This document shows positions 27,583-30,229 of a DNA stretch of 64,000 nt, piece by piece. Source of the DNA: Thiobacillus sp. SCUT-2 (lineage in GTDB: Bacteria; Pseudomonadota; Gammaproteobacteria; Burkholderiales; Thiobacillaceae). The DNA lies in the NCBI RefSeq assembly GCF_035621355.1, contig NZ_CP141769.1, forward strand, positions 124,001 through 188,000, in the 5' to 3' direction. A program made the position numbers and the translations under genes. The notes beneath the pieces were generated by a model. That model ran no database searches. It was not told where the DNA came from and saw only the letters and a program-made list of their open reading frames with translations. The stretch's first letter is position 1; the number at the start of each line of letters is the position of its first letter.

Positions 27583-28668
27583 ATGCTGCTTTGGCTGTTT
27601 CAACATCTGGGCCAGGACGTCCGCGCCTTCAATGTCTTCGGCTACCTGACGCTGCGCGCGGTGCTGGCGACGCTGACTGCGCTCACGATCTCCTTCATCG
27701 TCGGGCCGGCGGTGATCCGCAAGCTCACCGCGCTGAAGATCGGACAGTCGGTGCGCACCGACGGCCCGCAATCGCATCTGGTCAAGGCGGGGACGCCGAC
27801 GATGGGCGGCGCGCTGATCCTGGTGTCGGTCGCCATCACCACGCTGTTGTGGGCCGACCTGGCCAACGATTACGTCTGGGTGGCGCTGCTGACCCTTCTT
27901 GGTACGGGCGTCATCGGCTGGGTCGACGACTGGCGCAAGGTCGTGGAAAAGAACTCGCGCGGGCTGCCCTCGCGCTGGAAATACTTCTGGCAGTCGGTGA
28001 TCGGCCTCGCGGTCGCGGCCTATCTGTGGCAGACCGCCAGCCTGCCCGCCCATACCGAGCTCATCATCCCCTTCCTCAAGCAGGCCACCGTGCCGCTGTC
28101 TGCCGTCGGCTTCATCGCCCTCACCTACTTCGTGATCGTCGGCTCGAGCAACGCCGTCAACCTCACCGACGGCCTCGACGGACTGGCCATCCTGCCGACG
28201 GTCATGATCGCATCCGCCCTGGCCATCTTCGCCTACGTCGCGGGCAATGCGGTGTTCTCGAAGTACCTCGGGCTGCCCCACGTGCCGGGCGCCGGCGAGC
28301 TGGCGGTGTTCTGCTCCGCCATCGCCGGCGCGGGCCTGGCGTTCCTGTGGTTCAACGCCTACCCCGCGGAAGTCTTCATGGGCGACGTCGGCGCGCTGGC
28401 ACTCGGCGCCGCGCTCGGGGTCGTCGCGGTCATCGTCCGCCAGGAAATCATCCTCTTCATCATGTCGGGCGTGTTCGTGGTGGAGACCCTGTCGGTGATG
28501 GTCCAGGTCGCCTCGTTCAAGCTCACCGGCAAGCGGGTGTTCCGCATGGCGCCGATCCACCATCACTTCGAACTGAAGGGATGGAAGGAGAACCAGGTCG
28601 TCGTGCGTTTCTGGATCATCAGCATGATGCTGGTGTTGATCGGCCTTTCGAGCCTGAAACTGCGATGA
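27583..28668 (+). CDS. mraY: Phospho-MurNAc-pentapeptide translocase
   Basis: Ten-helix inner-membrane enzyme (361 residues) that transfers phospho-MurNAc-pentapeptide to undecaprenyl phosphate, forming lipid I. Conserved blocks are [18 protein letters not shown]-type [11 protein letters not shown] with the Asp pair, and the C-terminal [11 protein letters not shown]. Its last 66 nt (28603-28668) are repeated 158 bp downstream inside a small ORF. The stop TGA overlaps the start of that ORF. Confidence 0.97.
28603..28668 (+). repeat. Direct repeat copy 1 (3' end of mraY)
   Basis: 66-nt segment from GTGCGTTTC to the mraY stop. It is repeated at 28761-28826 with 62 of 66 identities; the four changes (Leu, Lys, Leu and Arg codons) are all silent. 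Confidence 0.95.
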
Positions 28669-28826
28669 GCGCAACCATGATGAAACGCACAGCGGGAAGG
28701 TTGGGGGGAGACTCACGTGTCGGCGCAGCCGGCACGTTAGGGCGACACCAGAACCTGCCCGTGCGTTTCTGGATCATCAGCATGATGCTGGTGCTGATCG
28801 GCCTTTCGAGCCTGAAGCTCAGATGA
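28665..28826 (+). CDS. 53-residue mini-ORF repeating the last MraY membrane helix
   Basis: This short ORF fills the mraY-murD gap exactly: its ATG overlaps the mraY TGA (28665-28668) and its TGA overlaps the murD ATG (28823-28826). The first ~32 residues ([15 protein letters not shown] onward) are polar, basic and unrecognised. The last 21 residues are identical to the C-terminus of MraY, i.e. its final membrane helix and LKLR tail. All four nucleotide differences from the mraY copy are synonymous. It would be translated by coupling. Product function, if any, is unknown; it may simply keep ribosomes moving from mraY to murD. Confidence 0.6.
28761..28826 (+). repeat. Direct repeat copy 2 (end of the mini-ORF, before murD)
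   Basis: Second copy of the mraY 3' end, in the reading frame of the mini-ORF, ending in the TGA that overlaps the murD start. The 92 nt between the copies are unique within the window. Confidence 0.95.
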
Positions 28827-30229
28827 ACTACGACAGCCTGAATCTTTCCGGCAAGCAGGTTCTGGTACTCGGCCTGGGCGATACCGGGCTGTCGTGCGCG
28901 CGCTGGCTGGCGGCGCGCGGTGCGCGGGTGAGCGTCGCCGACACGCGCGCGACGCCTCCGCATGCGGCACGGCTTGCCGAACTGCTCCCGCAGGTCGCGC
29001 TGCACACCGGCCCGTTCGACGGCGCCCGCTTGCAGGCGGCCGACATGCTCGTGGTCAGCCCGGGCATCCCGCTCGCCGACCCGGCCGTCGCGCGCGCACT
29101 CGCCGCGGGGGTCGAAGCCGTCGGCGACGTCGAGCTGTTCGCGCGTGCGCTCAATGCGCTCAATGCCCGGCGGGAGCATCCGATGCGGGTGATCGCGATC
29201 ACCGGCAGCAACGGCAAGAGCACCGTCACGGCGATGTGCGGCGACATGTGCCGGATGGCCGGCCTGACCACCTGCGTCGCGGGAAACATCGGCCTGCCGG
29301 TGCTCGACGCGCTGCTGGAAATCGAGCAGGGACGTGCGCCCGCGCCGCAGGCCTGGGTGCTCGAGCTGTCGAGCTTCCAGCTCGAGACGACGCGCAGCCT
29401 CAATGCCGATGCGGCGACCGTGCTGAACGTGTCGGAAGACCACATGGACCGTTATCCCGACATGGACGCCTATGCCGCGGCCAAGGCGCGCATCTTCAGC
29501 GGGACCGGCGTGCAGGTGCTCAACCGCGACGACGCGCGCACGCTGGCGATGGCGCTGCCGGGGCGGCACGTGGTGAGTTTCGGCCTCGACCGTTGCCCGC
29601 AGAACGAGAACTTCGGCCTGTGCGAGGACGAGCTGTGCCTGGGCGGCGACATGCTGATGCCGCTGTCCGCCCTGCCGGTCGCCGGCCTGCACAACGCCGC
29701 CAACGCCCTCGCCGCGCTCGCACTGACCCGCGCGCTGGGGCTGCCGATGGAGGCGCTGCTGCGCGGGCTCGTGCACTTCAAGGGCTTGCCGCACCGGGTC
29801 GAGAAGGTCCTCGAGATCGACGGTGTCACCTACTACGACGATTCCAAGGGCACCAATGTCGGTGCCACGGAGGCCGCGCTCTACGGCATGGGCAGCCGCA
29901 AGGCCGTCGTCATCCTCGGCGGCGACGGCAAGGGACAGGACTTCAGTCCGCTCAAGGCGGCGGTGCAGGCGAACGCGCGCGCCGTGCTGCTGATCGGCCG
30001 TGATGCGCCGCTCATCGAGTCCGCGATCGCGGGCAGCGGCGTGGACAGCCTGCGCGTTGCCAGCCTCGACGAGGCCGTCGGGCAGGCGCACCGCCTCGCC
30101 CGGCCCGGAGACGCGGTGCTGCTGTCGCCGGCCTGTGCCAGCTTCGACATGTTCCGCAACTACGCGCACCGCGCCGAAGTCTTCATCGCGGCGGTGCGCA
30201 GGCTCGCCGCGGAAAGGGCGGGGACCTGA
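28823..30229 (+). CDS. murD: UDP-MurNAc-L-alanine:D-glutamate ligase
   Basis: 468-residue Mur ligase. The N-terminal Rossmann-like domain begins [15 protein letters not shown], the ATP loop is [13 protein letters not shown], and [16 protein letters not shown] marks the central domain. The C-terminal part contains [17 protein letters not shown]. It adds D-Glu to UDP-MurNAc-L-Ala. Its ATG overlaps the mini-ORF stop rather than mraY; its TGA shares a base with the ftsW ATG. Confidence 0.96.

Follow-up and report, generated by a model that had tools for sequence, protein, structure and literature searches.

The 53-codon open reading frame (ORF) that lies between mraY and murD in Thiobacillus sp. 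SCUT-2 is composed of the duplicated start codon of murD, an inverted arm, an element core and a copied mraY tail, and it very probably arose as a by-product when a small hairpin element of a dispersed family inserted once. In this study, the window was the whole analysed stretch of 64,000 nucleotides (NZ_CP141769.1, positions 124,001 to 188,000, forward strand). Sequence comparison suggested that the inserted sequence was a single member of an element family whose insertion signature is unusual.

Anatomy of the mraY-murD junction

The following features were recognized in the window:
27583..28668, forward strand: mraY, 361 codons; ORF with Pfam PF00953 and PF10555
28589..28668, forward strand: target duplication, copy 1, from AGAACC through the mraY stop and ATGA; repeat and sequence reading
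28665..28826, forward strand: mini-ORF, 53 codons; no Pfam family
28675..28702, forward strand: inverted arm A', an imperfect reverse complement of the mraY segment preceding the last helix (CCA, GAAACGC, GGTT)
28703..28749, forward strand: element core with a hairpin at 28715-28737; matches to models R1 and R2, covariation
28750..28826, forward strand: target duplication, copy 2, from AGAACC through the second mraY stop; repeat and reading
28823..30229, forward strand: murD, 468 codons; ORF with Pfam MurD-like_N, Mur_ligase_M and Mur_ligase_C

The segment order at the junction was A (the mraY end), A' (inverted), core and A. The first-pass annotation had claimed that the end of mraY recurs directly before murD with synonymous differences only, and that an extra ORF overlaps both genes, and these claims were confirmed. 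The direct repeat (28602-28668 and 28760-28826) comprised 67 nt, of which 63 were identical (94%), at a spacing of 158 nt, which was far beyond chance, and the four differences between the copies (TTG/CTG, AAA/AAG, CTG/CTC and CGA/AGA) were all synonymous in the two frames. Moreover, the 53-codon ORF began in the mraY stop (ATGA, 28665-28668) and finished in the murD start (ATGA, 28823-28826). A weaker upstream continuation of the repeat, AGAACC at 28589 and at 28750, was read from the sequence, and the last 80 nt of mraY constituted the duplicated target segment. The start codon of murD was carried by copy 2, where it overlapped the stop codon that ends the second mraY tail. The 5' portion of the insert was an inverted copy of the mraY segment duplicated around it, and the insert together with the start of copy 2 was predicted to fold into one long hairpin (z -3.8 relative to shuffles). 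The target in copy 1 read GAGAAC, and the family consensus is GAAAAC.

Two models were used to search for the element. R1 was a covariance model built from Thiobacillus inserts only; R2 was built from eight cores and applied at a match threshold of E <= 0.01 in 41 genomes around G106. R1 matched 28692-28762 in the window, and R2 matched the mraY copy only, weakly (28700-28754, 20.1 bits, E 0.0043); the core at the Thiobacillus mraY junction was without the second hairpin of the three-way junction described below. Neither a promoter nor a terminator was found inside the insert by a simple scan. Relatives of the mini-ORF amounted to 25 database clusters at E <= 0.001. When the whole junction was used as a blastn query against the window's own genome, only weak matches were obtained, mostly to the MraY-helix part. 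Outside the window, R2 found two tandem element copies in the same genome (G000:C1:2713347-2713551, locus L307), whose duplicated segment corresponds to the start of a CobW-type GTPase gene in antisense orientation (named by Pfam).

Other insertions were observed at the same junction. The mraY-murD junctions of L018 (G001) and L023 (G002) contained a different palindromic insert of the CACAGAGGCACAGAG type, with a 48- or 47-codon ORF overlapping both mraY and murD, and other short palindromes were present in the junctions of L413 (G177) and L415 (G464). The mraY-murD junction seems often tolerant of inserts.

Distribution and evolution of the insert

Among 30 same-genus mraY junctions, 14 carried the insert, 12 showed a direct mraY/murD overlap, three had other inserts (G001, G002 and G014) and one was cut by a contig end. 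A family search of 117 genomes added G115, G117 and G120, giving 17 insert-bearing Thiobacillus genomes, and R1 over 56 Thiobacillus genomes returned the same 17, solely at mraY-murD. The shift of 158 nt was identical in all 16 complete Thiobacillus junctions; the seventeenth (G009) contains runs of N. In a tree built from mraY minus its tail, the presence of the insert needed 10 changes, at least five of them forced by well-supported branches, and no phylogenetic clustering was found (194 of 500 label shuffles were as low), with the outgroup G106 labelled as lacking the insert, yet bearing a separate one of its own. G012, which lacks the insert, was sister to the insert-bearing G021, and their mraY bodies were 96% identical. 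Since the single G012 tail resembled copy 2 of G021 (3 of 63 sites differed, versus 8 from copy 1), G012 apparently lost the insert via recombination between the direct repeats. Furthermore, the variable base of the arm tracked the mraY of its own genome (AAT with GAT, AAC with GGT) in 16 of 16 junctions.

The two mraY tails of Thiobacillus evolve in concert. Divergence was 0.046 between copies within a genome, 0.075 for copy 1 between genomes and 0.107 for copy 2. The suggestion of gene conversion from mraY was therefore upheld: the within-genome copies differed by 4.6% and the between-genome mraY tails by 7.5%, and none of 20000 re-pairings was as low. In G163 the tail repeat was identical at 65 of 65 positions though the ORF leaves frame, which indicated that a tail copy can stay identical untranslated. 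Over the 16 junctions, pN/pS was 0.05 in the original mraY tail and 0.10 in the remainder of the gene, rising to 0.20 in copy 2 and 0.72 in the inserted codons; the other two frames of the inserted 33 codons gave 1.06 and 0.91. The new part of the mini-ORF evolves almost neutrally.

In the junctions of relatives, the ORF was open in 16 of 16 complete insert-bearing Thiobacillus junctions, and 12 of 30 same-genus junctions had no insert of any kind. The inserted 99 nt had accumulated at least 68 substitutions while keeping a constant length and acquiring no stop, against about 2.7 expected (P about 0.07). Frame-keeping in the Thiobacillus insert is plausible, and these figures favour it weakly; an RNA or DNA fold could be an alternative reason for the absent stops and length changes. 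Coupling is favoured as the constraint, because both overlaps are likewise preserved where G001 and G002 carry their unrelated inserts. Thus, of the earlier proposal that an insertion was kept only to preserve translational coupling, the insertion stood, as one copy of a dispersed element, and the selective part is plausible with weak backing. Frame-keeping was not general, as the ORF was in frame in only 20 of the 31 mraY junctions described next.

A search with the MraY tail in 399 genomes of the order gave a second match in 18, of which 15 were read (G195, G390 and G408 were left out). The element was present at mraY in 14 of these, G161 being taken as the genome of L073 in these counts. 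The remaining genome, G410 (L300 / L417), showed the mraY end duplicated in tandem, the two copies being separated by a run of N; this arrangement was possibly an assembly problem and was set aside. The Glu-Asn codons near the mraY end were a repeated target in many genera, being hit in 17 Thiobacillus genomes and at 15 further junctions. The 31 element-bearing mraY junctions that were compared (including G060 and a Gallionellaceae locus; G009 left out) had element shifts of 147 to 185 nt, and the ORF was in frame in 20: 15 from Thiobacillus, where G022 is cut before its stop, and those of G106, Gallionellaceae, G206, G331 and G449. In G106 and G060, which belong to other genera, the inverted arm likewise corresponded to their own mraY sequence. 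The fold of the G060 mraY insert was not exceptional relative to shuffles (z -1.8), and by reading, murD of G060 and G438 appears to begin where copy 2 ends, with no bridging ORF.

A dispersed hairpin family and its insertion signature

When the L073 insert was used as a query, many further copies were found in G060. At other genes of G060, the copies followed the same pattern, the inverted arm and then the core being placed between two copies of a gene's 3' end. The dispersed nature of the family was missed at first because R1 found nothing beyond mraY-murD in 56 genomes; a single, vertically kept RNA was the first impression from R1 and was overturned by these copies elsewhere. R2 matches were present in 28 of the 41 genomes (92 in G060, 64 in G105, 53 in G106 and 39 in G066, several of the last spaced about 140-150 nt), and 37 of 56 Thiobacillus genomes had at least one. 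In a sample of the class, at least 3 of 369 genomes, the window's own included, had an R2 match at E <= 1e-4, a lower bound since only 14 candidates were scored per genome. One core (L200) had no blastn match in plasmid and phage collections. Of ten target proteins checked, accB, dapD, recR, argF, phhB and acs passed NCBIfam cut-offs; an ftsW fragment fell below its cut-off, L293 gave weak matches only and L252 none.

Several copies had particular surroundings. In G060 (e.g. L199, L203, L207, L211 and L214), near-identical MITE-like repeats with ends CTAGTACGCCAACCCATAAGTT had the core as a passenger, and in G105 (e.g. L257, L258 and L259) at least 10 core copies with the common flank CGCGCAACGCCGCA were apparently carried by another repeat, several of them with a short GAAAAC-GNA-GTTTC hairpin on the left. 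At L253 (G105, about 1527881-1527948), the core lay seemingly in frame near the start of an ORF, reading ...EEN-insert-QIIAERREKLAKLRQ; we take this ORF to be lysS-like. At L280 and L262, the duplicated segment includes an apparent tRNA gene fragment (the 5' half, tRNA-Ser-like on inspection), and the targets may thus extend to RNA genes.

Most single cores folded as a three-way junction, with one of seven (L200b) folding otherwise, and the core consensus begins TTTCGGCG. In alignment A6 (106 distinct rows), 96.0% of cells could pair, 17 of 24 pairs had changed on both sides, and the covariation score was 0.321 against 0.103 when shuffled and at most 0.044 when slid; these figures lean towards structure, since A6 had been fitted to the model and weak hits were among its rows. 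The first loop was GNA in 86 of 164 cores. Neither the window insert nor the element cores of seven loci matched any Rfam 15 family. Integron attC sites, whose box consensus is RYYYAAC, were considered on account of GTTAAGC-like boxes and were rejected, as the 5' box does not fit.

The insertion signature was examined at two scales. In the complete genome of G105, all 63 R2 hits at E <= 1e-4 were read, and a direct repeat between the flanks (score >= 16) was found in 22 of 63 and in 0 of 501 mismatched pairs. The repeat began exactly at the core edge in 13 of the 22, with some of these repeats coming from one array and two being identical. An inverted arm (score >= 8) was found in 10 of 63, against 2 of 3828 controls. 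The all-loci set, drawn mostly from the best-scoring hits, was reduced from 226 profile hits to 168 distinct ones with enough flank and to 142 with distinct downstream flanks. A direct repeat was detected in 77 of the 142 copies and was not found by this test in the other 65; the control was not clean (26/847), in our opinion because the same genes recur in several loci. In 55 copies the repeat began within 3 nt of the 3' edge of the core, and the bases before the upstream copy were G in 46, A in 53, A in 47, A in 51, A in 45 and C in 35.

Where the signature is preserved, the insertion target is G^AAAAC, and in signature-bearing copies the target was present from AAAAC onward on both sides of the core. 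The hits lean towards AAAAC because the model contains it; the G at -6 lies outside the model. Moreover, the last five bases of the core tracked the target, with 4.42 of 5 matches versus 3.70 +- 0.07 after re-pairing (the highest of 2000 being 3.96), and the core end followed the target variants AAAGC, ACAAG, ACAAT and AATAC. The duplications in the 55 copies measured 18-110 nt with a median of 50, a range whose lower limit was set by the score limit and whose upper limit by the 110-nt search window, with arrays lengthening some. The 5' arm of the core was an inverted copy of the target in 28 of 142 copies (85/20022 in controls), 20 of them among the 55, and was undetectable in most of the 142.

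A sense stop was found at 31 of the 55 anchored copies, compared with 38 of 161 GAAAAC control sites, which came from the same loci and include sites at elements; antisense starts were not enriched (12/55 versus 0.224). Under other rules, a second count gave a sense stop in the upstream copy in 41 of 55 and a sense start in the downstream copy in 13, and both gene-end counts were inflated by ORF calling in GC-rich DNA. This preference for gene ends can be survivorship, because a duplication near a gene end restores the gene.

Possible mechanism, related systems and significance

The long duplication would let the element enter a gene near its end without damage: mraY would be completed by copy 1, and murD would keep its upstream region and start codon via copy 2. 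In Thiobacillus, the junction may stay open because the coupling of mraY to murD makes it advantageous to translate the intervening stretch. As for the insertion itself, the 3' end at a nick might be extended over the hairpin, as DNA or RNA; the product might snap back and copy the adjoining target to yield the inverted arm; and the long duplication would result from joining at a second nick some distance away. This scheme of nick-primed copying, snap-back synthesis and distant joining is tentative, with slightly less than an even chance of being correct, and was proposed because the abrupt core-target junction, the inverted arm and the long variable duplication occur together. It is similar to target-primed retroposition. 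RVT_1, the only model in the reverse-transcriptase test, was missing from 7 of 10 high-copy genomes, among them G066 and G106, which are estimated to be 100% complete, and Y1_Tnp was missing from 5 of the 10; neither was common to all 10.

Recurrent template switching of replication at hairpin-prone GAAAAC sites, with existing copies serving as template, would require no dedicated element. Two template switches leave direct-inverted-direct copies in models of the process, and that order, the GNA loops in many cores and the lack of a common enzyme in the high-copy genomes agree with such an origin; it is unlikely, if credible, in view of the conserved core, which is not target-derived, and of the up to 92 matches per genome and narrow target consensus, which suggest a dedicated process. 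We hold a SINE-like retroelement moved by target-primed reverse transcription to be somewhat less probable again. Eukaryotic SINE-type target-primed insertion is characterized by a structured unit, an A-rich 3' junction and a long variable target duplication. The hairpin family has a structured core and an A-rich 3' junction matching the target, a long variable target duplication starts from that junction in 55 of 142 copies, and the core lies in gene sense at 31 of the 55 anchored copies; however, the family is bacterial, the inverted target copy on the 5' side is an unusual outcome for this route, and RVT_1 occurred in only 3 of the 10 high-copy genomes. We know of no transcript of the hairpin core.

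Far less probable is a regulatory RNA whose arm pairs with either mraY copy, so that alternative hairpins would register whether the mraY end is being translated and adjust murD. The Thiobacillus hairpin covaries, both partners having changed in 9 of 36 pairs, and its arm follows both mraY copies in all 16 junctions, but the same architecture was found at many unrelated genes, 12 of 30 Thiobacillus junctions manage without the insert, and the simple scan gave neither a terminator nor a promoter. The first-pass annotation had also raised selection on a tiny one-helix membrane protein derived from the last MraY helix. The inserted 33 codons with their pN/pS of 0.72, and the tail of G163, identical though the ORF is off-frame, speak against such a protein, as do the patchy occurrence (17 of 56 genomes; missing from 12 of 30 same-genus junctions), unclustered on the mraY tree, and the same anatomy at unrelated genes. 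Its attractions were the frame open in all 16 complete Thiobacillus junctions at a constant shift, the helix copy's pN/pS of 0.20 and the 25 related predicted proteins; the kept helix is explained by conversion, and we consider this protein the most improbable of the readings weighed here.

The hairpin family resembles several known systems. According to PMC2229807, YPAL / RU-2 of Yersinia is a short palindromic repeat without terminal TA, with target duplications of 3-26 bp, targets near dyad symmetry and ORFs running through the element. By description only, the present family shares the short palindrome, the lack of a terminal TA, the variable duplications, the targets near dyad symmetry and the ORFs through the element, whereas its target is GAAAAC, its duplications are longer (median 50 nt) and its 5' arm can be copied from the target. 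Bacterial MITEs (PMC10969869) are small, non-coding and dispersed with flanking direct repeats. The hairpin family is likewise small, non-coding and dispersed with direct repeats alongside, but it has no terminal inverted repeats common to all copies, as the arms follow their own target, and its target duplication is neither fixed nor short (18-110 nt). REP sequences moved by RAYT / Y1 transposases are described in PMC2817692 as hairpin repeats in many copies and arrays; the many copies and arrays recur here, while the consensus has no GTAG start, the duplications are long and Y1_Tnp occurred in only 5 of 10 high-copy genomes. Rickettsia palindromic elements (PMC10969869) are palindromic inserts staying in frame with genes, as some of the present inserts do; here, by contrast, most inserts lie where a gene ends and are accompanied by a copy of its tail, with one seemingly in-frame insert near an ORF start (L253). 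Searches of the open literature brought up no paper recognized as describing such an element; subscription papers and preprints lay outside that scope, and an earlier description may exist.

In conclusion, the chances are about even that these copies represent a class of bacterial mobile hairpin that enters G^AAAAC by nick copying, with a snap-back left arm and a duplication of tens of nucleotides. The puzzle of a mini-ORF has led to a rule: a narrow target, a long duplication, target-copied arms and tens of copies in some Burkholderiales. It raises the question of which process moves a hairpin of about 60 nt while copying its target both directly and inverted. For annotation, the case shows that conservation alone can mislead the recognition of small proteins, as the helix was here kept by conversion, and that a single event can create a small ORF whose start and stop properly overlap its neighbours. 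It also shows a route by which mobile sequence may reach the ends of essential operon genes without harm. If the proposed class is real, a mobile hairpin can lodge at the ends of essential genes and in operon junctions, where bridging ORFs are assembled at once from copies of a start codon and of a gene tail.
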